NCBI GenBank assembly: GCA_017964785.1
Contig: JAGCRH010000024.1
Coordinates: 1 to 34,678, forward strand
Source: Prevotella sp.
GTDB lineage: Bacteria; Bacteroidota; Bacteroidia; Bacteroidales; Bacteroidaceae
Direction: 5' to 3'
DNA length: 34,678 nucleotides
The notes under the pieces were generated by a model. That model searched no databases. It was not told where the DNA came from and saw nothing but the letters and a program-made list of their open reading frames with translations. Positions 711 to 22,120 of this stretch are shown piece by piece (position 1 is the first letter of the stretch; every line of letters begins with the position of its first letter). The position numbers were made by a program, and so were the translations under genes.

Positions 711-728
711 CAGAAAAATAGAAGACGT

Positions 729-3259: not shown

Positions 3260-3262
3260 TTT

Positions 3263-4534
3263 TTACTCGCCCTTGATGGCTGCTACGCCTGGGAGCACCT
3301 TGCCCTCGATGGCCTCGAGCAGGGCGCCACCACCGGTGGAGATGTACGACACCTTGTCGGCCAGGCCGAACTTGTTGACGCAAGCCACAGAGTCGCCGCC
3401 GCCGATCAGAGAGAAGGCTCCCTCGGCAGTTGCCTCAGCGATGGCCTCGCCGATGGCGCGGCTACCCGGGGTGAATGTGTCGCACTCGAAGACGCCGGCA
3501 GGACCGTTCCACAGGATGGTCTTGGCGCCCTTGATGGCGCGACGGAAGTCGTCCTGAGAGGCAGGACCGGCATCCACGCCCTCGAAACCTGCAGGCACCT
3601 TGTTGGCCGGGCAGTTGATGATCTCAGCGCCGGGCTTCACAGTCATCGTGCCGAAGTCGAGGCCATTCGTGGCGGTGCAGTCAGATCCGAGCACCAGTTC
3701 CACGCCGTTCTTCTTGGCCAGTTCCTCCACGCCCAGAGCCACGTCGAGTTTGTCGAGTTCCACGATCGAGTCGCCGATTTCGCCGCCGTGAGCCTTGGCG
3801 AAGGTATAGGTCATACCGCCGCAGAGGATGAGTTTGTCTACCTTGCCGAGCAGGTTCTCGATGATACCGATCTTCGAAGAAACCTTCGAGCCACCCATGA
3901 TGGCGACGAACGGACGCTTGATGTTCGAGAGCACATTGTCAACAGCCTGTACTTCCTTCTCCATCAGCAGACCGAGCATCTTGTTGTCAGCATCGAAGTA
4001 GTCGGCGATGACAGCCGTAGAGGCGTGCTTGCGGTGAGCGGTGCCAAAGGCATCCATCACGTAGCAGTCTGCATACGATGCGAGGGTCTTGGCAAACTCC
4101 TTCTGGCTGGCCTTCATGGCCTTCTTGGCCTCGTCGTAGGCGGGATCGGTCTTCTCGATGCCTACGGGCTTGCCTTCCTCCTCAGGATAGTAGCGCAGGT
4201 TCTCCAAGAGCAGGGCCTCGCCCATCTTCAGGGCCTTGGCAGCGTCGGCAGCCTTGGCGCAGTCGGGTGCAAAAGCCACGGGTACGCCGAGGGCCTTCTC
4301 CACAGCCTCGCGGATCTGTCCGAGCGACAGTTTGGGGTTCACCTTACCTTTGGGCTTGCCCATGTGGCTCATGATGATGGTGGCACCACCATCGGCCAGG
4401 ATCTTCTTCAACGTGGGCAGGGCACCACGGATACGGGTGTCGTCAGTGATCTTACCATTCTCATCGAGGGGCACGTTGAAGTCAACGCGCACGATTGCCT
4501 TCTTACCGGCAAAATTAAATTCGTTGATTGTCAT
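3263..4534 (-). CDS. pgk: Phosphoglycerate kinase
   Basis: Glycolytic enzyme converting 1,3-bisphosphoglycerate and ADP to 3-phosphoglycerate and ATP in the cytoplasm; 423 residues, close to the bacterial norm of 390-420. The N-terminus [14 protein letters not shown] carries the signature substrate-binding motif. [25 protein letters not shown] and the nucleotide-binding [18 protein letters not shown] and C-terminal [15 protein letters not shown] are all present. It is monocistronic, with its own -7 element (4593-4600) giving a leader of about 50 bases and a terminator in the opposing gene. The stop codons of pgk and the response regulator are 3 bp apart. Confidence 0.98.
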
Positions 4535-8732: not shown

Positions 8733-10862
8733 ATGGAACACACGGACAACTTGAAAGACGTCTACGGCTATCTGCTGCAACGAAATCTCTCCGGCGCCCT
8801 CGATGCGATGGAGATATACCTCTCCGTCCATCCGCTCGATAACAATCGGGACAGGCTCTACGCCATCCGCTCGGACTTCCAACTCATGACCGACTACTGG
8901 AAGCGGGGCTACAAGGACCAGCAGGCCACCTCACTGTATGAAAACCTGCTCCGCCGGATGTATGCCCTCTATGTCCAAGTGAGGTTAGGATGCGGTGGGC
9001 TCATCACTATACCCCGACAGCCGGCGGAGGACCTGAAAGTGCAGTTGGAGAGTTTTGTGTCCGATGTGGCGATGCTGGAACTGGAATCCCCGCACACGCG
9101 GAAGGAGAAAGAAAAGGCCGTTCACTTGAAGCACCATCATCTCTTGGAAGACTGGTTCGACTATCTCCTGCTGTCGCCTCTATGGAGTGCGGAGCAGGCA
9201 GAGCGAATGGAGCAGTTGCTGTTGGCACCGACCATCGACATCCGCGACCAGCAATTGCTGATCAGCGGTATCACCTTGGGTGTCGTGAACTGCTTCGATG
9301 CGTCGAAACTGAAAGTGCTGGTGAATGTCTACAAGCAGACGGGCGATGAAGGTGTGCGCCAGCGGGCCTTCGTAGGATGGGTACTGGCGCTCGGCGATCA
9401 GATTCTGCCCGTGCTCTATCAGGAAGAGTTGCACGAGGTTGAGAAACTGTTGGAAGACGAGGCGGTTTGTCAGGAACTGGTGGAGTTGGAACAGCAGATA
9501 TACTTCTGTATGAATGCCGAGAAAGACAACCAGACCCTCCAAAAGGAAATCATCCCCGAACTGTTGAACAATAGTAACTTCCGCGTGACGCGCAACGGCA
9601 TCGAGGAGATAGAGGACGACCCGATGGAGGATATCCTGCATCCCGATGCCGAGGAGCGGCGGATGGAGAAGGTCGAGGAGAGTTACCGCCGGATGCAGGA
9701 TATGCAGAAGCAGGGCTCCGACATCTACTTCGGCGGTTTCTCACAGATGAAGCGGTTCCCCTTCTTCCGCGATGCCATCAACTGGTTTGTACCTTTCTAT
9801 ATGGAGCATCCGGGGGTAGCAGAGGTGACCGACAGGCTCGCCTCCAACCGTTTCTTGAAACTGATGATGAACTCTGGACCATTCTGCAATAGCGACAAAT
9901 ACTCTTTCCTGTTGGCCTTCTCGCAGGTGATGGAACGGATGCCCAAGAACGTGTTGGAGATGTTGGAAAGGGGCGAGGCCACCATCGAGGATGTGATGAC
10001 GAAAGAGACGATGACACCGGCATTCATCAGAAGATCCTATTTGCAGGACCTGTACCGCTTCTACCGTCTGTATAGTAACAGAAGCCAGTTCCGTGATCCC
10101 TTTATGATGCAATTCAGTCTTTTCTTCGGTAATGCGATTTTCTCACATACCCGTCTTGCGCCCTACTTCGGGGAGATTGTGTCATCGCTGATGAAGTTGA
10201 AGCGCATCGACGAGGCTAAGGCCGTGCTGAACAATACCGACGAGTCTCAGCGGGATTTGAAATTCTATATGATTACGGGTTATATTGCCCAGAACTACCG
10301 CGGTCTCTTTGACAGCGTGAAAGCCAGTGTCTTTTTCTTGAAGGCGCTCGAACTGGATCCGAAGAATGAACGTGCGCTTTACGGCATCGCCAAGCAGCGG
10401 TTCTTAGAGAAAGACTATCAGGCGGCACTCGGGTATTACGAGCAACTGCTCGCCTTGCAGCCGGAGAAGCGCAATTATCTGCTGAACCACGCCGTGTGTC
10501 TCACGAAACTGCTGCGATACCAGGATGCGTTGAAGGAACTGTATCAGTTGAACTTTGAGCGTCCCGACGACAATCGGGTGAATAAAGTGCTGGCGTGGAC
10601 CCTCACCTGCGACGGGAAGTATGAGCAGGCCATCAGGATCTATCAGCAGTTGGTGGGTGACGATGCCCAGATGGAAGACTTGCTGAACTACGGCTATTGC
10701 CTCTGGTTCAGCGGACATATCTCCGATGCTGTCGACTGTTTCCACCGTTATCTAAGAGAAACAGGCGAGGGGAAGAAAAGCATATTGGATAGTGAAAGTG
10801 CGCTGATTAAGGAAAAGGGTATCACTGAGGCTGAGCAGCAGATGATGCTCTATATGCTCTGA
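8733..10862 (+). CDS. Large cytoplasmic TPR protein of unknown function
   Basis: 709 residues, no signal peptide or membrane helix. The first ~500 residues are helical without a recognised domain; they begin with a basal repeat-like segment (DVYGYLLQRNLSGALDAMEIYL) and include an acidic stretch EEIEDDPMEDILHPDAEERR near 290-310. Residues of about 510-685 form clear TPRs (ASVFFLKALELDPKNERALYGIAK; DYQAALGYYEQLLALQPEKRN; YEQAIRIYQQL). It lies 6 bp after the lipoprotein gene and is surely cotranscribed. Its last 41 bp overlap, tail to tail, the 3' end of the acyltransferase gene. A scaffold role is inference. Confidence 0.8.
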   Translation: MEHTDNLKDVYGYLLQRNLSGALDAMEIYLSVHPLDNNRDRLYAIRSDFQLMTDYWKRGYKDQQATSLYENLLRRMYALYVQVRLGCGGLITIPRQPAEDLKVQLESFVSDVAMLELESPHTRKEKEKAVHLKHHHLLEDWFDYLLLSPLWSAEQAERMEQLLLAPTIDIRDQQLLISGITLGVVNCFDASKLKVLVNVYKQTGDEGVRQRAFVGWVLALGDQILPVLYQEELHEVEKLLEDEAVCQELVELEQQIYFCMNAEKDNQTLQKEIIPELLNNSNFRVTRNGIEEIEDDPMEDILHPDAEERRMEKVEESYRRMQDMQKQGSDIYFGGFSQMKRFPFFRDAINWFVPFYMEHPGVAEVTDRLASNRFLKLMMNSGPFCNSDKYSFLLAFSQVMERMPKNVLEMLERGEATIEDVMTKETMTPAFIRRSYLQDLYRFYRLYSNRSQFRDPFMMQFSLFFGNAIFSHTRLAPYFGEIVSSLMKLKRIDEAKAVLNNTDESQRDLKFYMITGYIAQNYRGLFDSVKASVFFLKALELDPKNERALYGIAKQRFLEKDYQAALGYYEQLLALQPEKRNYLLNHAVCLTKLLRYQDALKELYQLNFERPDDNRVNKVLAWTLTCDGKYEQAIRIYQQLVGDDAQMEDLLNYGYCLWFSGHISDAVDCFHRYLRETGEGKKSILDSESALIKEKGITEAEQQMMLYML

Positions 10863-11964
10863 CCTTTTCTTTGGCTTTCTCGCAGAGCCAGGTGCCTAAT
10901 AGAGGGATGCCTACGCCTGCGACGGTGTAGAGTATCCAGAAACAGTCCTCCTGGGAGTGTTCGTGTATCACCATGTGACAGCCTATCTGTCGGCTGTCCA
11001 GGCCGTAGTACCATATCTTGATGAGACTCACCACCTTATAGGAGAGGATGTGGAAGATGAAGATGTTAAGCGTGTGGTCGCCGGTATAGACGAGGAACCG
11101 CTTGAACCAACCTTTGCCGGCATCTATCCACCGGCTGATGTTATAGGTCATCAGGAAACCGAGGATGGCAGGGACGGGGAGCGACAGGAACTGTTGGAAG
11201 GTGGAGCGCCAGTTCATGTTGGCAGTCAGGTATTTCGAGAAAAGCCAGACGATGAGGCCAAAGAGCAAGGTGGCTGGAATGGCGAGATAATGGCGTGACA
11301 TGATCTGGCGATAGTCATCGACAAACTGACGGAAGATAAAGCCGATGCCGAAGAAGAAACAACCCATCATATCGCGATAGCCACCCTGTACGAGGTTGAT
11401 GACTGTCAGCCCTTCCCAGGTCTTCCAGCCGCAGAGCAGCAGCATGATAAAACAGATGAGGTAGGGGATAGCCTTTTCTGCCCGTCGGGGTAGGGTGTAA
11501 TCCACCATCTTATATATAATAAGGTATAGAATGCTGGCGACGAAGAGTCCTCTGAAAAACCAGAAAGCCCCACAGAGGAAGGCATCATAGCCGCCCATCG
11601 CCGTGAAGATGTTCCAGAGGTTCTGCTGGATCTGATGGGCCGACCAAGGATGGAGCACGCCGCCTTGTTCATTGCCATAGACCTCGTTGAGGATGCCGAT
11701 GTCGAACATCCAGTTGTGGATGATCAGGAAGAACACCGCCCATTTGACAAACGGGATATAGAGACCCTTGATGCGCTTCTTGACGAAGGTGGCCTCGTCG
11801 TGGAGATATTTCGTGGAGAAGAAAAAGCCTGCCGTGATGAAGAACAGAGGCATGTGGAACTCGAAGATAAACTTGCACAGCCACCCCGGTGCCTCGGCGT
11901 GGGCAATTACCATCAAGATAATAGCAATACCCTTTGCTATAGAAATAACGGTATCCCTTTTCAC
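10822..11964 (-). CDS. Membrane acyltransferase, acyltransferase-3 family
   Basis: 380-residue integral membrane protein with about ten helices that fits the acyltransferase-3 fold: ISIAKGIAIILMVIAHAE with the key His22, then FEFHMPLFFITAGFFFS. Family members move acyl groups onto sugars of the envelope or exported glycans, which fits its place as the last gene of a KDO/envelope cluster. No ATG is suitable; the start is GTG 11964, placed inside the repeated word GTGAAAAGG that fills the gap to the upstream gene. The next ATG would cut the first helix. The C-terminus overlaps the TPR gene on the other strand by 41 bp. Confidence 0.82.
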   Translation of the reverse strand: MKRDTVISIAKGIAIILMVIAHAEAPGWLCKFIFEFHMPLFFITAGFFFSTKYLHDEATFVKKRIKGLYIPFVKWAVFFLIIHNWMFDIGILNEVYGNEQGGVLHPWSAHQIQQNLWNIFTAMGGYDAFLCGAFWFFRGLFVASILYLIIYKMVDYTLPRRAEKAIPYLICFIMLLLCGWKTWEGLTVINLVQGGYRDMMGCFFFGIGFIFRQFVDDYRQIMSRHYLAIPATLLFGLIVWLFSKYLTANMNWRSTFQQFLSLPVPAILGFLMTYNISRWIDAGKGWFKRFLVYTGDHTLNIFIFHILSYKVVSLIKIWYYGLDSRQIGCHMVIHEHSQEDCFWILYTVAGVGIPLLGTWLCEKAKEKVRAYRASSAAQPQ

Positions 11965-11988: not shown

Positions 11989-13206
11989 CTATAGCCAAGG
12001 GGTAAGAAGACTGCCAAACCAGCCTCTGAACTTCTGCCAGCCCGTGCGGAAACGATCCCACTCCTCTTCGGTGAGGAGGACGCTCTTCTGTTTGTCGCGG
12101 TCGAACATGTCATCGAGTTCCTTGGTGGTCTCGCGGTTCACGATGAGGGCATTCTCCTCATAGTCGAAGCGCAAACTGCGGGCATCGAGGTTCGTGCTGC
12201 CAACGGTACAGAAGCGTCCGTCGACCATCATAATCTTAGAATGATGGAAGCCTGGCTGGTACAGCCACACGTTGGCACCGAGTTCCATCATCTTGTGGGC
12301 ATTACGGAACACGACATCGGGAGTCAGGGGGATATCGCTCTTGGCAGAGACCATGATCTCTACCTTGATACCCCGTTTGATGGCCCGTTTCAAGGCTTTC
12401 TTGATACAAGGAATAAGGGTGAAGTAGGGGTTGATGAGTTTGATGGAGTCCTGTGCATCGTCGATGGCATGGACGTAGAACTGGCGCATGATCTTATTGG
12501 TGGTGCGCGGCTCACGGTTGACGATGCCTACCATCTTATTACCCGACGGCTCTGGATTGTAGTATTTGGAGTCAGTTACCGCTTCGTTGGTGGCCTTCTT
12601 CCAGATACGTGCAAAAATTTCTTGCAGGTCGTTCACGGCAGAGCCTTCTATCCGACAATGCATATCACGCCATTCGCCCACCTGTTCCGTGCCTACGATA
12701 TAGTAGTCGGCCACATTCATACCGCCTGTGTAGGCCGTCTTGCCGTCGATGACGACAATCTTACGGTGGTCACGGGGCCAGATATGGTTCACCCACGGGA
12801 AACGGATGGGGTCGAACTCCACGATGTTAATGCTGTCGGCACGGAGTTTCTTGAGGTGGTGCTTCTTTAAGGGCTGGTTGTTGGAGTCGTTGCCGAAACC
12901 GTCGAACATCGCACGTACCTCTATGCCTTCCTGACGTTTCTCTTTCAGAAGATCGAAGAGCAACGAGGCGATAGAGTCGTTGCGGAAGTTGAAATACTCT
13001 AAGTGGACACTGCTCTTGGCCTGACGGATGGTCTCGAACATATCCGCAAACTTCGCCTTTCCCGACATGAGCAGTTTCACACTGTTGTCGTTGGTGAAGT
13101 GTACGCCGTATTCCCTCATCTGTCTCACAATCAACGAATCACTGGTCTCCGCCTGTACGGAAACCAGTGATAGGAGATAAGTGACAAGGAAAAGAACAGT
13201 TCTCAT
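11989..13206 (-). CDS. Secreted phospholipase D-superfamily protein (cardiolipin synthase-like)
   Basis: 405 residues with a cleavable-looking signal peptide (MRTVLFLVTYLLSLVSVQA) in place of the two N-terminal transmembrane helices of typical cardiolipin synthases. Both HKD motifs are intact: His147-x-Lys149-x4-Asp154 in DHRKIVVIDG, and His322-x-Lys324-x4-Asp329 in HHSKIMMVDG. The fold normally transfers phosphatidyl groups, either making cardiolipin or cutting phospholipids; export suggests work at the periplasmic face. ATG 13206 is preferred over GTG 13209; the sequence GTGATGAG is the same as at the kdsD start. It begins 6 bp after the regulator's stop codon. Confidence 0.88.
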   Translation of the reverse strand: MRTVLFLVTYLLSLVSVQAETSDSLIVRQMREYGVHFTNDNSVKLLMSGKAKFADMFETIRQAKSSVHLEYFNFRNDSIASLLFDLLKEKRQEGIEVRAMFDGFGNDSNNQPLKKHHLKKLRADSINIVEFDPIRFPWVNHIWPRDHRKIVVIDGKTAYTGGMNVADYYIVGTEQVGEWRDMHCRIEGSAVNDLQEIFARIWKKATNEAVTDSKYYNPEPSGNKMVGIVNREPRTTNKIMRQFYVHAIDDAQDSIKLINPYFTLIPCIKKALKRAIKRGIKVEIMVSAKSDIPLTPDVVFRNAHKMMELGANVWLYQPGFHHSKIMMVDGRFCTVGSTNLDARSLRFDYEENALIVNRETTKELDDMFDRDKQKSVLLTEEEWDRFRTGWQKFRGWFGSLLTPWL

Positions 13207-13212
13207 CACTGC

Positions 13213-16200
13213 TTATTTCCTGTGTTTGAGCCTGTATTCGAGCGGTGTCATGCCAAACTTCTCACGGAAGATGTTGATGAAGTTCTCGGCTGTCAGGAAG
13301 CCGATGTTGGTAGACAACTCACTCATATTGATATTGGTACGTTTCAACAGGATGCAGGCGTGTTTCAGTCGCAGGTCGCGGATAAGTTCCGTCGGTGTTT
13401 TACCTGTCAGGTTACGCACACGGTGGAAGAACGGCACGCGTCCCATACCCATAGCCGTCGCCATCTCTTCCAGACTGATCTGACCGCGACTCATGTTCTG
13501 CATCACGTATTGCTCGATGTTCTTCAGGAGTTGCTGATCCATCATGTCAAGCATCGAGAAGTCTGCCATATCCTGCTGTATTTCTTCCTCCTTGAACTGC
13601 TCCAGTTGCTGGGCCAGTTCTGTGCTTTCCTGAACCACAGGTCCTTTCTTGATGGATGTTTCCACCTTGTGGATGGGATCGTTCTCGTCCACGGTGTCGT
13701 TCTTGGCATCGTAGACACCGATATCGCCGTAACTCTCCGTGGCCGTCGTCATGCTGGCGTTGCGATCCTCCAGCATACGGGTCTCAGCACCTTCGATGAG
13801 GTTGCTATTCATCTCGATGGGCCCGAGTCCGAGTGTCTTGTTGAACCGCATCACGGCCTCCTGCAGGTTGAAAGGCTTGGCCAGATAGTCGTCTGCCGAC
13901 AGTGTGATATTCTGCCTGCGCATATCCTGCGGCGTGAGCACACCGTCGGTCATCAGCACGAACTTCGTCTTCTGGGTAATCGCATTGGTCTTGATCTGGT
14001 TGCACAGTTCACTACCGGTCATACCTGGCATATCCTGTTTACAGATCACGAGGTCTGGACGCATTTCGAGGATATCGTCGGCAGCCTTCTCGATATCATT
14101 GTAGGCATGGAAGGCATACACGTATTTCAGTCTGGCCGTGACAAATTTCAAGAAGTCGATGTTATCGTCAATCATCGCCACAGAGAACTTCATCGTCGGT
14201 GCATCGAGGGCGGCCCTTGACCTGGTGATGTCGGTCGTCAGTGTCTCGCTGGCAATCTCCGGCAACTCAATCTCACCACGTCCGTTCAGTTCCAGACGGT
14301 CGTGAACCACATTCTTCGCCTTCTCCTCGGGATTCTCCAAGGTGGTCTGCATATCGCTGACACGGGTGATGATCTGGAGCATCTGCGAGTGGAGGGCATT
14401 CAACTGCTCACGTTCCTCCAACGACTTCTCCTTCTCCGACAGGTTCCCGATGATGGAGGTCATACGGGCCATCGGCTGGCGCAGGTCGTCGCTGGCGGCC
14501 TTGATCTCCTCACGCTGCCGCACCAGTTGGTTGATGACGGCATGTTTGCGTGTCCTGATGGCCTTGATCTGTTTGACGCCGATGCGCCAGAAATAGATGA
14601 TGACGGCGGCAATCAATATGTAGGCGAGTATCATCCACCAGGAGAGCAGCCAGTGACTCTCGACATGGATGTCAAGGGTGCGCTCCTGATTGCTGACGGC
14701 ACCTTCCGCACTGATCGCCTTCACGTGGAGGGTGTAGTTGCCGCTGCTGAGGTTCTGGAAGGTGACACCGTGCGTCAGGGCATTACCGTTCTTCCAGTCG
14801 TCGTCGAGTCCCTCCATCCAGTACATGAACTGAAGACGCTCGCTCTGGTTGTAGTTGCCTGCACCGAACTTGATGGTGATGGTGTTCTGGTCATGTCCCA
14901 GTACCAGTCTGCTACTCTCGTTCAGGGCCTGTCCTAAGAGCACCTTATTGCCATAGGTGTGTCCGATCTGTACCTCCTCTTCGCCGAGGAACAGTTGTGT
15001 CAGCATCACTCGTGGCAGGGCATCGTTGTCTTCCTTGCCTTTCTGTACCACCCAGTTGACGCCGAATATACCGCCAAGCAGCACGTCGCCGTCCTTTTTG
15101 GTGATAATGGACCCGTGGTTGAACTCGTTGCTCTGCAGACCGTCGGTCGTGTCGTAGTTGTAGAGTCCGAAGTTATAGGTGCCGTCCTCGTGGTTACGCT
15201 GTACCACCACACGGCTCACACCACTACTCGTGGTCACCCATATATTGTGGCTCTTGTCTTCTGCGATACCACAGATATTGTTGTTGCAGAGTCCCTGTTT
15301 TTCCGTCAGATATTGCAGATTGTCCGTTTCCATGTCCAGGATGTTCAGACCTTCACGGGTACCAATCCAGATCAGTCCGCGGGAGTCTTGGAGCACCTGT
15401 GTGATATAGTTGTTGGTAAACTGCTTCACATTGTTGGAATTACCTGTCAGCACCTTCTTCTCCGTGTTCGAGAGGTTCATGATCACCAGACCTTCGGCCG
15501 TACCGATAAAGAGGTCGTTGGTCTTTCCGTCCTTATTATAATAGAGGCAGGACACATTGTTGGTGTTCAGTTTGCCGCTCTCCTTGGTGTACGACGAGAA
15601 GGAGTTCATTCTGGGGTTGTAGACTTGCAGACCGCCGTTGGTGGCAATCCACAGGTTACCGATCTTATCGACGCAGAGGGCGTTCACATGATCGTCGATC
15701 AGCGTTCTGGTACTGTCCTTGGCCAACGAGTAGATGGTCGACGTGCCGCCTTTGATACGGGTCAGTCCGTTGCGCATCGAGCCTACCCAGAGGCTACCGT
15801 CGGGGGTGATGGCCATACACGATACCTTCAGGCTGGCCAACGGACCGTGAAAGTCGAGGACGCCTCGGTTACTCGTTCCATACCAGATCTTTCCGCTGTC
15901 AGCCTGTGCGATGGCGGTAATGTCTCCGTTATGCGTTGTGCCAAAGCGATAGATATCCTTGCCAGTGTAGGCCACACCTCTCTTCTCCGTTCCCACCCAC
16001 AGCAGGTCGGTGTCGTCCACATAGAGACTCTGGATGCTGATCCTACTGCGTAAGATACGACGGGCATTGATATTCACGGGGCTGATGCTGTCGATCTGGT
16101 GGGTGTCAGTGTCATAGCGCAACAGTCCCAACTGATCTGAAGCAATCCAAATGTTCCCGCTCTTGTCACTGGCCATGCCGTTGATATTACGATCCACGCC

Positions 16201-16995
16201 GATACCTGTCAACCCCAGTTGGTTGCCAAATGAGGTGTCCCATGTGCTGGCGCTCTTGTTGTATTTGAAGAGGGTTCCTTGACCGTAGAGCCAGATGTTA
16301 TCGGCTTGGTCGGCGAAGACCTTCAGCGACTTGCTCCTTCTCAGTTTCTGTGTAGCGATGTCGTTGGTTGCCCAGACGGTGTGCTGCTGGTTCATCACAT
16401 CGCAGCATACAACCCGTCCGTCATCATAGACGATCAGGGCACCGTCCTTACATTCACCGATGGAGCAGATGTTACCTTGTGGCACACCTTTGATATCGTC
16501 GGAGTTTGGGAACTCATAACAAGTCTGCTGCTGCATGTTGAAGCAGACGACTCCCTTGTTGGGAATGGCACCCCAAAGGTTCTTGTGGCGGTCGACATAG
16601 ACGACGCTTGGGATGGTCTCGATACCCATTCTGGCGAAGTACTGTTTCATGTCGCGCTCAAAACTCTCCGTCTGTGGATGGTAGACACAGTAGCCCGAGG
16701 CGGTCTGCACCAGCAGGTTGCCGTCCAAAGTCTCCTGGATGGTGTTGATGTAACTGTTGGGCAGCGAGTTGCCGTCCTGCGAGTCACTCTGGAAATTCTT
16801 GAACACATAGCCGTCATACCGGTAGAGTCCGGCCGGCGTACCAAACCACATGTATCCGCGTGAATCTTTTAGGATACAGTTAATCTGACTACTGGTCAGT
16901 CCGTCTTTGGATTCCAGGGTCTTAAACAAGTAGTCAGCCATCACTACCATCGGCAGTGCCAACAACAAAACAAACAGTAGTTTCTTTATCTTCAT
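13213..16995 (-). CDS. HTCS-like transmembrane regulator without kinase or phosphoacceptor residues
   Basis: 1260-residue regulator with the outline of a hybrid two-component system. Signal peptide 1-20; repeated propeller blades (for example SRGLIWIGTREGLNIL, KIGNLWIATNGGLQVY) to about 660; a Y_Y_Y domain at about 705-775; transmembrane helix 786-807. A DHp-like hairpin follows, but its H-box reads SDDLRQPMARM, with Asp836 where the phospho-His should be. No HATPase domain is present: only about 130 residues separate the membrane from the receiver. The receiver keeps Asp943/Asp944 and Lys1040 but has Lys986 in place of the phospho-Asp (DLVICKQDMPGM). An acidic linker and an AraC helix-turn-helix (about 1158-1260) end the protein. 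ATG 16995 is chosen for the signal peptide; GTG 17013 lies in a repeat. It probably signals by conformation, without phosphate. Confidence 0.92.
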   Translation of the reverse strand: MKIKKLLFVLLLALPMVVMADYLFKTLESKDGLTSSQINCILKDSRGYMWFGTPAGLYRYDGYVFKNFQSDSQDGNSLPNSYINTIQETLDGNLLVQTASGYCVYHPQTESFERDMKQYFARMGIETIPSVVYVDRHKNLWGAIPNKGVVCFNMQQQTCYEFPNSDDIKGVPQGNICSIGECKDGALIVYDDGRVVCCDVMNQQHTVWATNDIATQKLRRSKSLKVFADQADNIWLYGQGTLFKYNKSASTWDTSFGNQLGLTGIGVDRNINGMASDKSGNIWIASDQLGLLRYDTDTHQIDSISPVNINARRILRSRISIQSLYVDDTDLLWVGTEKRGVAYTGKDIYRFGTTHNGDITAIAQADSGKIWYGTSNRGVLDFHGPLASLKVSCMAITPDGSLWVGSMRNGLTRIKGGTSTIYSLAKDSTRTLIDDHVNALCVDKIGNLWIATNGGLQVYNPRMNSFSSYTKESGKLNTNNVSCLYYNKDGKTNDLFIGTAEGLVIMNLSNTEKKVLTGNSNNVKQFTNNYITQVLQDSRGLIWIGTREGLNILDMETDNLQYLTEKQGLCNNNICGIAEDKSHNIWVTTSSGVSRVVVQRNHEDGTYNFGLYNYDTTDGLQSNEFNHGSIITKKDGDVLLGGIFGVNWVVQKGKEDNDALPRVMLTQLFLGEEEVQIGHTYGNKVLLGQALNESSRLVLGHDQNTITIKFGAGNYNQSERLQFMYWMEGLDDDWKNGNALTHGVTFQNLSSGNYTLHVKAISAEGAVSNQERTLDIHVESHWLLSWWMILAYILIAAVIIYFWRIGVKQIKAIRTRKHAVINQLVRQREEIKAASDDLRQPMARMTSIIGNLSEKEKSLEEREQLNALHSQMLQIITRVSDMQTTLENPEEKAKNVVHDRLELNGRGEIELPEIASETLTTDITRSRAALDAPTMKFSVAMIDDNIDFLKFVTARLKYVYAFHAYNDIEKAADDILEMRPDLVICKQDMPGMTGSELCNQIKTNAITQKTKFVLMTDGVLTPQDMRRQNITLSADDYLAKPFNLQEAVMRFNKTLGLGPIEMNSNLIEGAETRMLEDRNASMTTATESYGDIGVYDAKNDTVDENDPIHKVETSIKKGPVVQESTELAQQLEQFKEEEIQQDMADFSMLDMMDQQLLKNIEQYVMQNMSRGQISLEEMATAMGMGRVPFFHRVRNLTGKTPTELIRDLRLKHACILLKRTNINMSELSTNIGFLTAENFINIFREKFGMTPLEYRLKHRK

Positions 16996-17029
16996 GTCAC
17001 TTTTACTTTTCACTATTCACTATTCACTT
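16996..17029 (-). repeat. Junction repeat of AGTGAATAGTGAA words
   Basis: The entire gap between the kdsD stop and the regulator ATG is made of AGTGAATAGTGAATAGTG- and AAAAGTAAAAGTG-type words on the minus strand. It contains an in-frame GTG (17013) that extends the regulator frame by six residues. Confidence 0.75.
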
Positions 17030-17977
17030 CTATATCATACATGAGTAGTGGTCAACCACGCCGAGCAGATGCTGGTCGTCATCAGTTACCAGTACCGAAT
17101 GTATCTTATATCTGTTCATAATCTGTTGAATTTCCGTAATCTTCGTGTTCGGCTTCACCATCTTCGGGGTGCGCGTCATGATGTCGCTCACGGTATGGTC
17201 GAAGAACTCCGCCTGCCATTTCTCCGTGGCGCGGCGGATGTCGCCGTCGGTGATGAGACCCACAATCTGACCGTCCACTTCTGCCACGCCCAGTCCCAGT
17301 TTCCCCTTGCTCACCAGGATGATGGCCTCGCCGAGACGCATGTCTGGCGGCAGGACGGGCATGTCTTCCGTCCGCATCACGTCCTGGGCCGTTGTCAGCA
17401 ACCGCTTGCCGAGTTCTCCACCCGGATGGTACTGGGCGAAGTCACGGGGCTGGAAATTGCGCTTCTCAATGAGGGCTACTGCCAGGGCGTCGCCCATCGC
17501 CAACTGTGCCATCGTCGAACTGGTTGGAGCGAGGTTCAGCGGACAGGCCTCTTTCTCCACGCTCACGTTCAGGTGACAGGTGGAGTATTTCGCCAACAGC
17601 GACTGTGGATTACCGCTCATGCCGATAATCGGTATCTGCATGTGCAGCACCATGGGGATGAAGCGCAACAGTTCGTCCGTCTGTCCGGAGTTGCTGATGG
17701 CCAGTACCACATCCCCCTGAGCCATCACCCCAAGGTCGCCGTGAAAGACATCGAGGGGGTTGATGAAGAACGAGGGTGTACCCGTCGAGGAGAGGGTAGC
17801 GGCAATCTTGGCACCGATGTGTCCGCTCTTGCCCACACCCGTCACGATGATCTTTCCCTTACAATGGTAGATCAGTTCGACGGCTTCGTCGAAACTGTCG
17901 CCAATCTGGGGGATCAGTCCCATCACGGCCTGAGCCTCGTCCTTGATGCATTGTATGGCGTATTCTCTTATACTCAT
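17030..17977 (-). CDS. kdsD: Arabinose-5-phosphate isomerase (KdsD/KpsF/GutQ)
   Basis: Cytoplasmic enzyme turning ribulose-5-phosphate into arabinose-5-phosphate, the first step to KDO for lipopolysaccharide. 315 residues from ATG 17977. The SIS domain (about 35-170) shows GVGKSGHIGAKIAATLSSTG, then FHGDLGVMAQGDVVLAISNSGQTDEL; two CBS domains follow (MRTEDMPVLPPDMRLGEAI and DIMTRTPKMVKPNTKITEIQ). The start shares one base with the kdsA stop (TGATG), and both lie in a GTGAAAAG-type repeat, so the two KDO genes are translationally coupled. A GTG one codon earlier is the alternative start. Confidence 0.95.
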   Translation of the reverse strand: MSIREYAIQCIKDEAQAVMGLIPQIGDSFDEAVELIYHCKGKIIVTGVGKSGHIGAKIAATLSSTGTPSFFINPLDVFHGDLGVMAQGDVVLAISNSGQTDELLRFIPMVLHMQIPIIGMSGNPQSLLAKYSTCHLNVSVEKEACPLNLAPTSSTMAQLAMGDALAVALIEKRNFQPRDFAQYHPGGELGKRLLTTAQDVMRTEDMPVLPPDMRLGEAIILVSKGKLGLGVAEVDGQIVGLITDGDIRRATEKWQAEFFDHTVSDIMTRTPKMVKPNTKITEIQQIMNRYKIHSVLVTDDDQHLLGVVDHYSCMI

Positions 17978-17997
17978 CACTTATCACTTTTCACTTC
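17974..17997 (-). repeat. Junction repeat forming the KdsA tail, stop and KdsD start
   Basis: The minus strand reads GAAGTGAAAAGTGATAAG followed by TGATGAG. It encodes KdsA residues EVKSDK, the TGA stop and the overlapping ATG of kdsD. Confidence 0.75.
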
Positions 17998-18753
17998 GAT
18001 CAACTTGGCCACAAGTTTATCGAGTTTGTCGAGTTCCAGCATATTGGCGGCGTCGCTCAGGCCTTTGTCGGGGTCGGGGTGTACCTCGAAGAACCACCCT
18101 GTAGCACCGAAGGCTTTGGCGGCCAGTGCCATCTGCGGCACAAACCGTCGGTCACCGCCAGTCTTCCCGTCGCTGCCGCCCGGACGCTGTACACTATGGG
18201 TACAGTCCATGATGACCGTCGGCACAATCTCCAGCATGTCGGGGATGTTACGGAAGTCCACCACGAGGTTGTTGTAGCCCATCATATTGCCCCGTTCCGT
18301 CAACCAGACATCCTTGGCACCGGCCTCACGAGCCTTTTCTACCGGATACCACATATCCTTTCCACTCAGGAACTGGGCCTTTTTGATGTTGATAACGCGT
18401 CCTGTCTGGGCGGCTGCCACGAGTAGGTCGGTCTGCCGACAGAGGAAGGCGGGTATCTGCAACACGTCGCACACCTCACCGGCGGGTTTGGCCTGCCAGG
18501 TCTCGTGGATGTCCGTCAGGATCCGGAGCCCGTATTTTGATTTGATGTCAGAAAGCATCTGCAGTCCGCGTTCCAGTCCCGGACCGCGGAAAGAGCGTAT
18601 CGACGTGCGGTTGGCCTTGTCGAACGAGGCTTTAAAGATGATGTCTGTCCCTTGCTTTTCGTTGATTTCCACCAACTTACGTGCAACGGTGTCGAGCAGT
18701 TCGGTTGACTCAATCACACAGGGACCGGCAATGATCGTTGCTTCTTTCATCAT
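17977..18753 (-). CDS. kdsA: 3-deoxy-8-phosphooctulonate (KDO-8-P) synthase
   Basis: Condenses phosphoenolpyruvate with arabinose-5-phosphate to KDO-8-phosphate in the cytoplasm; 258 residues, usual length. Motifs: IIAGPCVIES at the N-terminus, FKASFDKANRTS, DIHE, DVLQIPAFLCRQTDLL, DCTHSVQRPGG and GWFFEVHPDPD. The Cys in AGPCVIES is the position occupied by the metal ligand in metal-dependent KdsA enzymes (Asn in the E. coli type), so a metal-dependent enzyme is predicted. Two ATGs in tandem (18753, 18750) are possible starts. A full promoter (TTTG-N20-TATTTTTG) sits just upstream, leaving an almost absent leader, so kdsA can be expressed apart from the channel gene before it. Confidence 0.97.
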   Translation of the reverse strand: MMKEATIIAGPCVIESTELLDTVARKLVEINEKQGTDIIFKASFDKANRTSIRSFRGPGLERGLQMLSDIKSKYGLRILTDIHETWQAKPAGEVCDVLQIPAFLCRQTDLLVAAAQTGRVINIKKAQFLSGKDMWYPVEKAREAGAKDVWLTERGNMMGYNNLVVDFRNIPDMLEIVPTVIMDCTHSVQRPGGSDGKTGGDRRFVPQMALAAKAFGATGWFFEVHPDPDKGLSDAANMLELDKLDKLVAKLIEVKSDK

Positions 18754-18763
18754 ATTTGCTTTG

Positions 18764-18795
18764 CAAAAATACGCATTTTATCTTTAACCACCAAA
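18764..18795 (-). promoter_or_regulatory. Consensus promoter for kdsA (TTTG-N20-TATTTTTG)
   Basis: On the minus strand TTTG (complement of 18792-18795), exactly 20 bases, then TATTTTTG (complement of 18764-18771). It ends 10 bases before the first ATG of kdsA, which points to a leaderless or near-leaderless transcript. It lies in the gap after the channel gene and provides an internal promoter for the envelope cluster. Confidence 0.8.
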
Positions 18796-18805
18796 GATTT
18801 TGGTA

Positions 18806-18840
18806 AATTTTTCACCTTTTCACCCTTTCACCTTTTCACT
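18806..18840 (-). repeat. GTGAAAAGG-word repeat forming the channel protein's C-terminus
   Basis: Four tandem words of the type AGTGAAAAG / GTGAAAGG encode the last residues SEKVKG and the TGA stop of the MscS-type channel and extend about 14 bases beyond it. Confidence 0.75.
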
Positions 18841-21168
18841 GATCAAGTGTACGTCTCGTTGCGGGAACGGGATCTCGATGCCGTTGGCATTCAACGTGTC
18901 GTAGATGCAGTTCAGGATGTCGCTCACCACATAGACCTTCTTCACGGCGTCCACCCAGACGATGAGTTGGAAATTGATGCTGGAGTCGGCCATCTCCGTC
19001 ATCACCACCCTGATGCGCTTCTCGTTGTCTATCAGGTGGTGCTTCAGGTTGTGTACGGCATCCTCGATGAGATCCTTCACCTGTCCGGCCTTTGAACCGT
19101 AGGCCACGCTGAACGGTATCAGCGCGAGGATATACCCGTGGTTACGGGTCAGGTTCTTGTAGTTCTTCGTGAAGAGTTGTGAGTTCTGGAAGGTGATGAC
19201 CTCGCCGTAGAGCGACTCCACGATGGTCGAGGTGTAGTTGATGGATACCACCTTACCCGTGGTGCCGTCCACCTGTATCCAGTCGCCTGCCTTGATACGT
19301 CCTGTCATCAGCGAGGCACCGTAGTAGATGTTTTCGATAATGTCCTTCGAGGCAAAACCGATACCGGTGGAGAGTCCGCCGGAGATGGCCAACAGCCATT
19401 CTACGCTGATATGCAGGTAGGCGAGTGTCCCCAACAGCCAGACACCCCAGATGATGAGTTGTATCACGTTCTTACCCATTACCACGCGACTCTCTGCCGT
19501 CGAGGGGTCTTTGATCTCGAAGTGCAGGCGCATCAGGGCGAGGATGGTTTTCGAGAGCCACTTGAAGAGGAACCAGAGACTGATCACCGTGGCCAGTTTC
19601 ACAATGCTCACCTGCAGGTTCTCCTGATTGATAAACTTCTTGTTGAAGTAGTCCCAGCACATGTCGCTCAGGTTGAACACGTCGGTGGCCCAGTAGACGC
19701 TGAGCATCACCGACCACACGATGAGCACCGGCATGACCACCTGGCGGATGAACGAGTGGAGCCATGTCTTTGTGATGGGCTTCTCGGCAAAGCCGTGCTT
19801 CTCCTCATAGATCTTCAGATAGTCGGAGATACAGGTGATGGTCAGAATACACGTCAACTGCATGATCCACCAGATGAGTAACTGCACGGAGAGTAGGGTA
19901 TAGCCCGCCCAGGAGCAGCACACCGAGGCGATGAACACCGTCAGCGAGACGTACGTATAGAACATATCCGAGCGGGGGATATTCTGGTTGTGCTTCCTCA
20001 CACCCCACCACTGCCAAACCATACAGGTAAGTAAAACCGGCGGGAAAACCAAACTTACCAATTCGCTGGGTATCAGAATAATACGGAAGGTGATAACCAC
20101 AAATCCAATGACCAGTAAAGGGGCATAAATATGGAAGGCACTCTTTATCTGTTCGCTGTTCACGCGGAGCAGCAGCGATATCAGGATGACAGCCAACAGC
20201 CACAGGTACTCCACAAAGAGTCCGCTCGCCATGATGAAGAAGTTCTGGTCGCTGTAGTGGCGGATGATGCCCATGAGCAGGGCCAGTGTGATGGCGGTGG
20301 TGGCCCACATGATCGACGAGCGTTTCTTCAGGAACTCCTCCGTGTGGAACCGTTTGGGCAGGAAACGGTACACCAGCCGGTTCAGTCCGATGGCGATGAG
20401 GGCATAGAAGGCGATGGCCAGAAACAGGCCGAAGATCCAGTACACGTTCCAGTCGGAGCGCTGGCTCTCCTTGTCGGTGGTGTATTTCTTCTGCATCACC
20501 TCGTGCATCGTACGCCATTTCTCCTTCAGGTGGCGCACAATGTCGATATAGGTGTCGCCGCCGTTCACGAAAATACTCGTCTGGATGTCGTAGTACCGTT
20601 TCTGCGCGTAGTCGTTCATGTTTTTCAACCGCTGCTCGGTGCTGTTGTAGTAGCGGATATAGTCCTCTATCTGCTGACTGTCCTCCTCGAGGGTGCGCAT
20701 GATACTCGTGGCCAGTGTTAGACAGACGTTACGGTCGGTCTTGGCCTCCTCGCTCAGCATGTTCGTCGGCATCACTTTCAGACTGTTCACCAGACTGTCG
20801 TAGCGGGCAATCTCCACATCTGTCTTTTTCAGATGGTCGCGGAAGGGCATCTGCTGGCGCTGGAACCGCTGGTACTGTTCGGTGGCCTGATGACAGGCGT
20901 AGGTCAGGTCGAACAGGTATTCCTGTTTCTGCGAGTAGAGCATCAGGGCGTTCTGGTTCGACTGCTTCATGGTCTGCGTCAGGTTGCGGAACACCTCTTG
21001 TGTCTGTTCCTCGCGCTCTTCGCGCTGCGAGGTCAGTTCGTGATAGTGCTTGGTCAACTCCGAGCGCAGGATGGTCAGCGTCTCTTCCAGGTTCTTTTCC
21101 TTGAGCACGGCGCCGGCCTCTATCGTGAAACCCATCAGGAGGGCGATGATGATGATATATCTTCTCAT
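18820..21168 (-). CDS. Large MscS-family mechanosensitive channel
   Basis: 782-residue inner-membrane channel. A signal peptide (MRRYIIIIALLMGFTIEAGA) leads to a predicted periplasmic helical, probably coiled-coil region to about 240 (EETLTILRSELTKHYHELTSQREEREEQTQ). About ten or eleven membrane helices follow. The MscS core near 590-760 shows GLSTGIGFASKDIIENIYYGASLMTGRIKAG split across the pore helix and beta domain, then VDGTTGKVVSINYTSTIVE and a C-terminal alpha/beta domain ending in IEIPFPQRDVHLI. This is the layout of the large, KefA/MscK-like members that relieve osmotic stress. ATG 21168 is chosen for its signal peptide and promoter; the longer open frame runs through the divergent promoter region. 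The last six residues come from a repeat. Confidence 0.9.
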   Translation of the reverse strand: MRRYIIIIALLMGFTIEAGAVLKEKNLEETLTILRSELTKHYHELTSQREEREEQTQEVFRNLTQTMKQSNQNALMLYSQKQEYLFDLTYACHQATEQYQRFQRQQMPFRDHLKKTDVEIARYDSLVNSLKVMPTNMLSEEAKTDRNVCLTLATSIMRTLEEDSQQIEDYIRYYNSTEQRLKNMNDYAQKRYYDIQTSIFVNGGDTYIDIVRHLKEKWRTMHEVMQKKYTTDKESQRSDWNVYWIFGLFLAIAFYALIAIGLNRLVYRFLPKRFHTEEFLKKRSSIMWATTAITLALLMGIIRHYSDQNFFIMASGLFVEYLWLLAVILISLLLRVNSEQIKSAFHIYAPLLVIGFVVITFRIILIPSELVSLVFPPVLLTCMVWQWWGVRKHNQNIPRSDMFYTYVSLTVFIASVCCSWAGYTLLSVQLLIWWIMQLTCILTITCISDYLKIYEEKHGFAEKPITKTWLHSFIRQVVMPVLIVWSVMLSVYWATDVFNLSDMCWDYFNKKFINQENLQVSIVKLATVISLWFLFKWLSKTILALMRLHFEIKDPSTAESRVVMGKNVIQLIIWGVWLLGTLAYLHISVEWLLAISGGLSTGIGFASKDIIENIYYGASLMTGRIKAGDWIQVDGTTGKVVSINYTSTIVESLYGEVITFQNSQLFTKNYKNLTRNHGYILALIPFSVAYGSKAGQVKDLIEDAVHNLKHHLIDNEKRIRVVMTEMADSSINFQLIVWVDAVKKVYVVSDILNCIYDTLNANGIEIPFPQRDVHLISEKVKG

Positions 21169-21176
21169 AATGGCCG

Positions 21177-21184
21177 CAAATTTA
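21177..21184 (-). promoter_or_regulatory. -7 promoter element for the MscS-type channel gene
   Basis: The complement reads TAAATTTG, 8 bases before ATG 21168, again nearly leaderless. Exactly 20 bp upstream is TTCG, one mismatch from TTTG, lying inside the palindrome 21192-21209. Confidence 0.7.
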
Positions 21185-21191
21185 CAACTAT

Positions 21192-21209
21192 TTTCGTAAA
21201 TATACGAAA
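21192..21209. promoter_or_regulatory. Candidate operator palindrome TTTCGTA-N4-TACGAAA
   Basis: Perfect 7-bp arms around AATA. It covers the -33 position of the channel promoter and lies about 40 bp upstream of the divergent kinase promoter, so a bound protein could affect both. Confidence 0.5.
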
Positions 21210-21248
21210 TATTCTGCCGAAAACATGCCGATTTAGCGTTTTTTTGTT

Positions 21249-21256
21249 TACTTTTG
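21249..21256 (+). promoter_or_regulatory. -7 promoter element for the BadF-type kinase gene
   Basis: TACTTTTG matches TAnnTTTG, 27 bases before ATG 21284. No TTTG lies at 20 bp upstream. Confidence 0.6.
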
Positions 21257-21283
21257 TACCCGAATAGCAAAAAACGACGCAAT

Positions 21284-22120
21284 ATGATACTGATAGCAGA
21301 CAGCGGAAGCACCAAGACCGACTGGGCTCTTGTCGACCGGGAGACCGTCGTGCGTTTCAATACCCAGGGCATCAATCCCGTCCACCAGAAGCGGGAGGCC
21401 ATCTTGGAGATCCTCCACGTGGAACTGCTGCCAAGTATGGAGGCCGGTGAGGTGAAATCTGTCTTCTTTTATGGCAGTGGCGTGCGCCCCGAATTGGAGG
21501 CAGCGATGGCAGACATCCTTCGTGAGGTCTTCCCCCAGGCCAAGACCGTCGAGGCCCACAGTGATCTGTTGGGCGCGGCCCGTGCCTTATGTGGTCATAA
21601 CTATGGTATCGCCAGCATTTTAGGGACGGGCGCTAATTCTTGCCTTTATAATGGCGAACGGATTGTGATGAACACCCCCGCCATGGGCTATGTCTTGGGC
21701 GACGAGGGGAGTGGGGCAGCCCTCGGCAAGCGTCTGCTGCACGATCTGTATAAGGGTGTTTTGTCAGAAGAAATTGTCAGTGGCTTTGAGGCTGAGACGG
21801 GTCTCTCGCTGCCCGAGATCATCGACAAGGTCTACCGCCAGCCCCTGCCCAACCGTTTCCTGGCCTCGCTGTCGGAATACGTACACGGCCACATGGCCGA
21901 CTGGCTGGAGTTGCGCCGTCTGGTGATGGATAACTTCGCCGACTTTTTCCGTTTTAACATTGCGCCCTACCAGCGTCGCGACCTCTCCGTGTCGTTCGTC
22001 GGCAGCCTTGCCTATCACTATCATGCGGAACTGCATGAGGTGGCCCGCTCCATGGGCTATACCGTCGGTGCCGTCACCCGCAGCCCCATCGAGGGCCTCG
22101 TCCGCTACCACACTGCCTGA
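21284..22120 (+). CDS. BadF/BadG-family ATPase, N-acetylglucosamine kinase-like
   Basis: 278-residue cytoplasmic ATPase of the actin-like (ASKHA) fold. Phosphate-1 motif ILIADSGSTKTDWAL at the N-terminus; central SILGTGANSCLYNG and GYVLGDEGSGAALGKRLL (about 107-150) match the N-acetylglucosamine kinase-like branch; SVSFVGSLAYHY near 233 is the adenosine site. Typical length for the Bacteroidota form. It probably phosphorylates an amino sugar or recycles cell-wall sugars; the substrate is inferred from family only. It is divergent from the envelope cluster and followed by a long palindrome and a repeat array, so it is probably monocistronic. ATG 21284 fits both the promoter and the motif; the frame upstream is non-coding. 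Confidence 0.88.
   Translation: MILIADSGSTKTDWALVDRETVVRFNTQGINPVHQKREAILEILHVELLPSMEAGEVKSVFFYGSGVRPELEAAMADILREVFPQAKTVEAHSDLLGAARALCGHNYGIASILGTGANSCLYNGERIVMNTPAMGYVLGDEGSGAALGKRLLHDLYKGVLSEEIVSGFEAETGLSLPEIIDKVYRQPLPNRFLASLSEYVHGHMADWLELRRLVMDNFADFFRFNIAPYQRRDLSVSFVGSLAYHYHAELHEVARSMGYTVGAVTRSPIEGLVRYHTA

Follow-up and report, generated by a model that had tools for sequence, protein, structure and literature searches.

The window analysed here, a stretch of 34,678 nucleotides from a Prevotella sp. contig (JAGCRH010000024.1), encodes a large regulator, REG, built like a hybrid two-component system (HTCS), and raises the question of how such a protein could signal once its phosphate-moving parts are gone. 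An earlier note on this DNA had described a propeller, a Y_Y_Y domain, a membrane helix, a DHp-like hairpin, a receiver and an AraC domain, and this anatomy was recovered by Pfam searches, PDB relatives and an AlphaFold2 model. Residues are numbered from the GTG codon at 17013, which adds 6 to the numbers of the earlier note, whose Asp836 and Lys986 are D842 and K992 here. The features of REG, all on the minus strand, are as follows.

13213..17013, minus strand: pseudo-HTCS regulator ORF (REG), 1266 aa from GTG 17013; ATG 16995 is the likelier start (1260 aa)
14857..16923, minus strand: periplasmic two-component-regulator propeller, residues 31-719 (Pfam Reg_prop; PDB relatives 4a2l, 3v9f, 3ott)
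14656..14856, minus strand: Y_Y_Y domain, residues 720-786 (Pfam match 720-784)
14578..14646, minus strand: membrane helix, residues about 790-812, limits set by eye (sequence and AlphaFold2 model helix 2-74)
14299..14517, minus strand: pseudo-DHp helical hairpin, residues 833-905 (weak HisKA match, model helices 2-74 and 79-107, conserved)
14488..14490, minus strand: D842 codon, corresponding to the H-box His (D in 73 and E in 16 of 89 orthologs)
14188..14298, minus strand: linker at the place of HATPase_c in canonical HTCS, 34-38 residues in 89/89
13834..14187, minus strand: pseudo-receiver, residues 943-1060 (Pfam Response_reg; complete receiver fold in the model)
14038..14040, minus strand: K992 codon, corresponding to the phospho-Asp (K in 89/89)
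13963..13974, minus strand: alpha3-beta4 loop at the S/CHIP place of canonical HTCS, residues 1014-1017, QKTK in REG
13738..13797, minus strand: motif IEGxETRxLExxNxSMTTxx, specific to the family, residues 1073-1092, lying between the receiver and the AraC domain
13216..13551, minus strand: AraC-type DNA-binding domain, residues 1155-1266 (HTH_18; nearest PDB sequence for this part, 12aw)

Pfam matched Reg_prop with E=5.5e-34, Response_reg at residues 945-1054 with 50.2 bits (cut-off 30.2) and HTH_18 at residues 1184-1261; the highest-scoring PDB sequences were HTCS sensor domains, and 4a2l is BT4663. Weak matches to Baculo_PEP_C, PilJ, KLRAQ and others, among the best 25 of the 96 families listed, were taken as coiled-coil noise. 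REG thus has the propeller and Y_Y_Y sensor, membrane helix and AraC output of an HTCS, and its sensor, membrane helix and DNA-binding domain share one chain, as in a transmembrane one-component regulator. In the AlphaFold2 model, made for a 480-aa piece as a monomer, a single helix runs from the membrane into the first DHp-like helix, and the receiver is complete and accompanied by an AraC-like helical domain; the matches found by Foldseek were receivers and AraC domains. The placement of the receiver relative to the DNA-binding domain was discarded as unusable, because with a pTM of 0.33 domain placement cannot be read from the model.

The features that define an HTCS as a phosphorelay, namely the phospho-accepting His, the HATPase_c domain and a receiver with phospho-Asp, are absent from REG. 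Among 89 non-redundant orthologs (including REG of the window; pairwise identity 53-97%), residue 842 is D or E and never H, whereas the H-box His is present in 14/14 canonical HTCS relatives; the HisKA match of REG (16.3 bits at residues 833-888) lies under the cut-off of 26.9. HATPase_c was not listed for REG at E<=1 in the Pfam search. Moreover, a HATPase profile made from 13 canonical relatives reached at best 0.8 bits over 94 ortholog rows (the 89 non-redundant ones among them), compared with 189-249 bits on its own source proteins and 78-105 bits on nine proteins kept out of its construction. These nine belong to PHK, a related HATPase-bearing family (propeller, Y_Y_Y, membrane helix, HATPase) without the His, a receiver or a DNA-binding domain. 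Consistently, the H-box and phospho-Asp sites, the same two points in both groups, lie 147-151 residues apart in 89/89 REG sequences versus 291-333 in the 14 canonical HTCS. The hidden HATPase_c that the earlier note proposed to look for was not found in REG or its orthologs. Both substitutions that it described are confirmed, and orthologs with an intact His or Asp numbered 0/89 and 0/36 in further loci that partly overlap those 89. Its statement that every phosphotransfer element is lost needs qualification: the His, HATPase and phospho-Asp are gone, but the receiver active-site residues D949, T1022 and K1046 each persist in 89/89, with the second acidic position, 950, variable (D61 S16 N9 T3, n=89). 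According to PMC12632262, the His is missing in 0.9% of HisKA domains and the Asp in 2.0% of receivers; in PMC4395418, Arg, Lys and His jointly make up 4% of phospho-Asp replacements.

The D842/E842 and K992 substitutions are fixed throughout the REG family, with open frames of 1251-1446 aa in 89/89 sequences. The former H-box is among the best-kept stretches (S841, L844, R845, P847, M848, R850 and M851 are invariant), and H875 and D949 are invariant as well. From 74 non-independent pairs out of 3,916 possible, dN/dS was 0.075 for the H-box, 0.10 for AraC, 0.14 for Y_Y_Y, 0.18 for the propeller and 0.22 for the pseudo-receiver, the last being under weaker constraint than the other domains. By these estimates selection on REG is purifying, and together with the fixed substitutions this upholds the idea of a protein maintained without phosphotransfer. 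REG occurs in 155/398 sampled genomes of its genus, rumen Prevotella among the hosts, and in none of the other genera sampled.

REG also lacks the S/CHIP-DK inhibitory contact, which holds canonical HTCS away from DNA and is found in most, though not all, HTCS. H at 1015 and P at 1017 are absent in 89/89 orthologs, the Pro being present in 14/14 canonical relatives versus 0/89 REG, while the partner D1159 is kept in 89/89 and the place of the partner K is K in 48 and R in 41. Since the S/CHIP His is already missing from the close canonical relatives L022-L026, which retain IP, part of this loss may predate REG. Substitutions in the S/CHIP motif are described as enabling unphosphorylated HTCS response-regulator fragments to bind DNA (PMC11253607). 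The family-specific segment 1073-1092 has a dN/dS of 0.082, is of low confidence in the model and has no matching residues in the aligned canonical relatives.

The surroundings of REG are those of envelope genes.

11989..13209, minus strand: cls, cardiolipin-synthase-like, the next gene, 3-base gap to REG (PLDc domains above cut-off)
17030..17980, minus strand: kdsD-like, KpsF/GutQ-family sugar-phosphate isomerase (TIGR00393 passes its cut-off, the KdsD equivalog model does not)
17977..18753, minus strand: kdsA, KDO-8-phosphate synthase (two equivalog models above cut-off)
18764..18795, minus strand: promoter-like TTTG-N20-TATTTTTG directly upstream of kdsA (strict pattern)

The cls product scored 274.4 bits with TIGR04265, slightly under the cut-off of 290. 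In 75/75 larger loci REG is flanked by kdsD and cls; its setting is a KDO-gene operon and not a polysaccharide utilisation locus. The promoter-like pair upstream of kdsA, of Bacteroidota type, was found in 43/74 loci versus 0.1 expected by shuffling (31 had no match), and also in 4 of 10 REG-negative loci displayed. The operon promoter looks, from its sequence, like a plain housekeeping type, and inspection by eye recognised no REG-specific operator upstream of kdsA. Location alone suggests envelope state as the signal of REG; the gene order agrees with the earlier proposal of envelope sensing, but the housekeeping-like promoter and a PorZ-like score common to propeller proteins elsewhere do not favour it. 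A PorZ/LPS-sensing lead (NCBIfam, under cut-off) was dropped as a specific identity of REG (87.7 bits) because PHK L154 (83.3) and the one-component protein L021 (82.4) score about equally; for canonical L022 and L024, PorZ was not among the best 25 matches listed.

How does REG compare with known systems? HTCS such as BT4663 and BT4124 have the same order of propeller, Y_Y_Y, membrane helix, DHp-like region, receiver and AraC domain, and in a tree of the propellers REG branches from within the canonical HTCS. It differs from them in the missing H-box His, HATPase and S/CHIP, the Lys in place of phospho-Asp, the extra pre-AraC motif and a location among KDO genes rather than in a polysaccharide locus. 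The label 'HTCS-like', as used in two papers, was set aside as a precedent, since it refers there to ordinary polysaccharide-locus regulators. Precedents in print for a one-component regulator on a kinase scaffold do exist, and ChiS, pseudo-receivers and pseudo-histidine kinases are partial ones. ChiS, a non-canonical hybrid sensor kinase from Vibrio cholerae that binds DNA, retains its kinase domains, and its DNA-binding domain is an unusual one. A sensor, a membrane helix and a DNA-binding domain in a single chain are also found in the transmembrane transcription regulators surveyed in PMC10269533 and in propeller-AraC one-component proteins such as L021 (Reg_prop, Y_Y_Y, HTH_18); L021 has neither a kinase nor a receiver domain, whereas both folds remain, inactive, in REG. 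With its Response_reg fold and replaced Asp, REG has an aspartate-less receiver, or pseudo-receiver, and follows the trend described in PMC4395418 (the first acid, the T and the K are conserved and the second acid varies), but a Lys replacing the Asp is rare there and the kinase half of REG is dead too. Kinase-derived, lacking catalytic functions and still kept, REG also counts among pseudo-histidine kinases, which have a DHp-like domain without the catalytic His (PMC12632262; ChrS and a Caulobacter pseudokinase are further examples in print); unlike them, REG lacks an ATP-binding domain altogether and includes a DNA-binding output of its own.

Because the phosphate-moving parts are gone and have stayed so across many related species, shape-only signalling by REG is probable. 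We therefore favour, with moderate confidence, the reading that REG descends from an HTCS and acts as a one-component transcription regulator anchored in the membrane, passing its signal by shape, probably as a dimer. A periplasmic ligand or state would alter the setting of the propeller/Y_Y_Y dimer, and the change would run down the membrane helix, continuous with the first helix of the DHp-like bundle, which would serve only as dimeriser and signal coupler. Pseudo-receivers and AraC domains would thereby be re-placed, leaving the pair able or unable to bind DNA. K992 probably fills the acidic pocket vacated by metal and phosphate. With S/CHIP lost, the lock released by phosphorylation in canonical HTCS would be gone, and segment 1073-1092 may be a new latch.

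The best-surviving alternative, though an unlikely one, is that REG forms part of a mixed complex, in which its pseudo-DHp pairs with another sensor, such as PHK or a canonical HTCS, and this partner supplies the switch. PHK was detected in 85/155 REG-positive versus 4/243 REG-negative genomes of the same 398, counts uncorrected for phylogeny, and both proteins may simply mark one clade. The two are complementary: nine aligned PHK retain the N- and G1-box residues of a HATPase and have no output, whereas REG has an output and no HATPase. However, PHK fell below the detection cut-off in 70/155 REG-positive genomes, many of them incomplete, and did not adjoin REG in the loci fetched. A two-protein system is possible on these sequence data. 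A narrower version, which we consider doubtful, makes the two proteins halves of a phosphotransfer-free relay from a duplicated HTCS, joined in mixed membrane dimers in which REG is tuned by shape. If it were true, the relay would be split, PHK bringing the ATP-binding domain and REG the DHp-like bundle and AraC output, and REG would be tuned by the binding of ATP or by a further ligand in the periplasm.

Somewhat less likely than the mixed complex, REG could be always on or always off and controlled by its amount, with the pseudo-receiver locked by K992 and the propeller a vestige or anchor. PMC12632262 discusses pseudo-receivers that are active constitutively, and the housekeeping-type promoter and the loss of the S/CHIP lock would fit. 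A mere anchor, however, would need neither a propeller and Y_Y_Y domain under such clear purifying selection nor a strongly conserved H-box helix, which counts against it. It is very improbable that phosphorylation continues at a displaced residue with a kinase in trans. The invariant H875, in the second helix, and D949 would be candidates, but a His at the H875 position also occurs in canonical L022, L026 and L027 and is thus an ordinary residue there, which makes H875 an unlikely substitute phospho-His; D949 is the usual metal-binding acid position, and there is no HATPase in cis. Finally, a decaying gene or a sequencing or assembly error, which the earlier note had named as a possible undoing of its observation, is refuted by identical substitutions and long open frames in 89/89 sequences, purifying selection and a constant operon place (75/75).

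REG as a one-component regulator passing its signal by shape would be a natural separation-of-function case, in which evolution deleted phosphotransfer and the sensor, bundle, receiver fold and DNA-binding domain are still selected. It makes testable how far signalling by HTCS and pseudo-receivers is a matter of conformation, and what substitutes for the lock between receiver and DNA-binding domain where phosphate is absent. For annotation, REG is a warning that a protein called an HTCS from its domain order need not be a kinase, and that an HTCS-shaped regulator may serve something other than a polysaccharide locus.

The regulator studied here, REG, is a pseudo-HTCS (HTCS, hybrid two-component system) encoded by a single open reading frame:

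13213-17013, minus strand: REG, 1266 aa from GTG 17013 (numbering used here) or 1260 aa from ATG 16995, which by eye opens a signal-peptide-like stretch.

Counted from this ATG, the otherwise intact frame of 1260 codons in the earlier note is upheld, and so are its HTCS propeller, Y_Y_Y, receiver and AraC domains, since Pfam matched Reg_prop repeats, Y_Y_Y (residues 720-784), Response_reg (945-1054) and HTH_18 (1184-1261). HisKA matched weakly (16.3 bits versus a cut-off of 26.9), and HATPase_c was not among the matches listed. In the H-box, SDDLRQPMARM, D842 occupies the place of the His, and in the receiver, VICKQDMPGMTG, K992 occupies that of the phospho-Asp.

We collected 93 loci with matches above 1000 bits, the window included, 13 from one search and 80 from another; the second search was limited to the best 80 of 176 relatives, which biases the sample towards close ones. 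Clustering at 98.5% left 89 non-redundant sequences, the window among them, with pairwise identities of 53-97% (median 66%). The substitutions read earlier as Asp836 and Lys986 are general: site 842 is D in 73 and E in 16 sequences, site 992 is K in 89/89, and the intact His or Asp sought among orthologs was found in none. In another 36 loci, among them the window and several genomes counted before, K likewise stood at site 992 in 36/36 and His at the H-box site in 0/36. Receiver residues D949, T1022 and K1046 are retained in 89/89, and site 950 varies (D61, S16, N9, T3). The distance between sites 842 and 992 is 147-151 residues in 89/89, versus 291-333 in 14 canonical relatives (HTCS with His and Asp). 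Nor did a hidden HATPase emerge: a profile built from 13 canonical relatives scored at best 0.8 bits on 94 REG ortholog rows versus 78-105 bits on nine proteins outside its training set, members of PHK, a related His-less family. Among the 25 of 96 families listed for the 89 C-terminal halves, HTH_18 and Response_reg were matched in 89 and HisKA, weakly, in 68.

In a pool of 74 close pairs (3,916 possible), not independent of one another, dN/dS was 0.18 for the propeller, 0.14 for Y_Y_Y, 0.12 for the pseudo-DHp (H-box, 0.075), 0.22 for the pseudo-receiver, 0.10 for AraC, 0.08 for segment 1073-1092, and 0.34 and 0.36 for linkers. The fixed substitutions and the values of 0.075-0.22 across domains indicate a maintained protein, as proposed. 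The initial observation is confirmed, and its interpretation is partly supported.

In a propeller tree of 29 rows, which has several long branches, six REG rows formed one clade (support 100/100), with REG's position supported at 94/93. Its sister group holds canonical HTCS (L022-L026) together with PHK and L153, and further canonical HTCS fall outside both. The two sites hold His and Asp, respectively, in 14/14 canonical relatives that carry a receiver. If this tree is right, phosphotransfer would have been lost on REG's own stem, and the His separately in the PHK/L153 line. In the L153 protein (725-4009; 1095 aa; propeller-Y_Y_Y-TM-AraC), the H-box is degenerate (NEELRQPF) and the receiver is missing, which makes it a further form without a kinase in REG's genus.

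PHK comprises the following members:

L152 and L154-L161, nine loci with open frames of 1030-1085 aa; L163 (genome G000, contig C115:1-2904), cut by the contig end.

These proteins consist of propeller, Y_Y_Y, TM and HATPase (Pfam on L152, L154 and L161, with no HisKA match; HATPase by profile on nine) and lack a recognisable phospho-acceptor His. Their C-terminus is a short, conserved acidic tail, EEAVLMDDDE-like, which can be aligned with receiver beta1. A similar C-terminal tail is shared by propeller-Y_Y_Y-TM proteins of 871-872 aa without HATPase or output (L156:6519-9134, in tandem with a PHK, and L162:349-2961). Near PHK, 7/9 loci carry a neighbour of ~990 aa with the same start, GH31-like by eye; four loci have LacI-like genes and two a sugar-transporter-like gene. 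At a cut-off of ~190 bits or more, with the matches listed reaching well below it, PHK was present in 85/155 genomes with REG versus 4/243 without (Fisher p ~6e-38, genomes treated as independent of phylogeny); the four are 54-88% complete, and G647, with a broken copy at 167 bits, was excluded. PHK may act as a partner of REG or may mark a clade.

In canonical HTCS of Bacteroides, S/CHIP in the receiver alpha3-beta4 loop is reported to touch D and K of the DNA-binding domain, a contact that holds this domain off DNA and whose substitution leads to DNA binding without phosphate (PMC11253607). REG has His at 1015 in 0/89 and Pro at 1017 in 0/89 (K88, M1), with partner residues D1159 in 89/89 and K48/R41 at 1198; the 14 canonical relatives have Pro in 14, His in 9, the partner D in 14 and K10/R4 at the K place. 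Judging from these sequences, the phosphate-opened lock of canonical HTCS is gone from REG along with the phosphate machinery. The S/CHIP His is already absent in REG's nearest canonical relatives. Instead of the lock, REG has an invariant segment between receiver and AraC, IEGxETR...SMTT (1073-1090), without a counterpart among the canonical relatives aligned. In the AlphaFold2 model, confidence is low for this motif (window 13738-13797, residues 1073-1092). This model, of 480 residues (mean pLDDT 72.3, pTM 0.33; 101 residues below 50, mostly linkers), has a single helix that leaves the membrane and continues into the hairpin, followed by a second helix, a complete receiver and AraC-domain helices, and Foldseek matched the receiver part to solved receivers (e.g. 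3nns, TM 0.82 by target length). From the lost lock, the segment and these folds, we infer that the signal would pass as a conformational change along a predicted helical dimer, the model being a monomer.

Membrane one-component regulation is described for ChiS, built on a hybrid kinase scaffold, and for TTRs (PMC10269533); for pseudo-receivers and pseudo-histidine kinases there is a review (PMC12632262). Among the open-licence papers listed by word matches, none dealt with a pseudo-HTCS within a kds operon, or with an HTCS lacking each of the three phosphotransfer elements.

The pseudo-DHp profile matched 155/398 sampled genomes of the genus, 5/251 in the family sample (all of the same genus) and 2/393 in the order sample (both of that genus, one the window's own). 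Among the best 80 of 176 relatives, record titles are mostly Prevotella or Prevotellaceae, with one Xylanibacter ruminicola, and many name rumen, reticulum or omasum samples. The placement in a KDO-gene cluster also holds: among the 75 non-redundant loci that span 9 kb or more, REG is flanked on the same strand by kdsD upstream and cls downstream in 75/75, with kdsA in 74 (in the exception, L043, the fetched stretch begins 877 bases before the match); twelve shorter loci (L009-L020) likewise carry kdsD and cls. Other neighbours in the window are:

18820-21402, minus strand: MscS-type channel before kdsA, in 59/75 loci, adjacency not constant.
10822-11964, minus strand: uncharacterised 380-aa ORF after cls, in 44/75 loci.

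In 9/9 genomes of the genus picked for lacking REG, kdsA, kdsD and cls are consecutive with nothing between; a tenth, G794 of another genus, had no cls within the fetched stretch. A tree built on kdsA, kdsD and cls covered 48 loci, of which 39 carry REG (every second larger locus plus two more) and 9 do not; 38/39 with REG fell into one fully supported group. The remaining locus, L186, whose REG carries the same substitutions, paired with a locus lacking REG (support 91/82), so the best tree requires two gains or losses; its starred branches force just one.

A promoter-like pair, TTTG-N17-22-TAnnTTTG, lies upstream of kdsA in 43/74 loci (0.1 expected by mononucleotide shuffling), 32 of the 43 at 39-43 bases before the match start. 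Given the gene order and this pair, REG and the KDO and cardiolipin genes are probably transcribed together at a basal level. This operon context bears on the expression of REG, not on what it senses.
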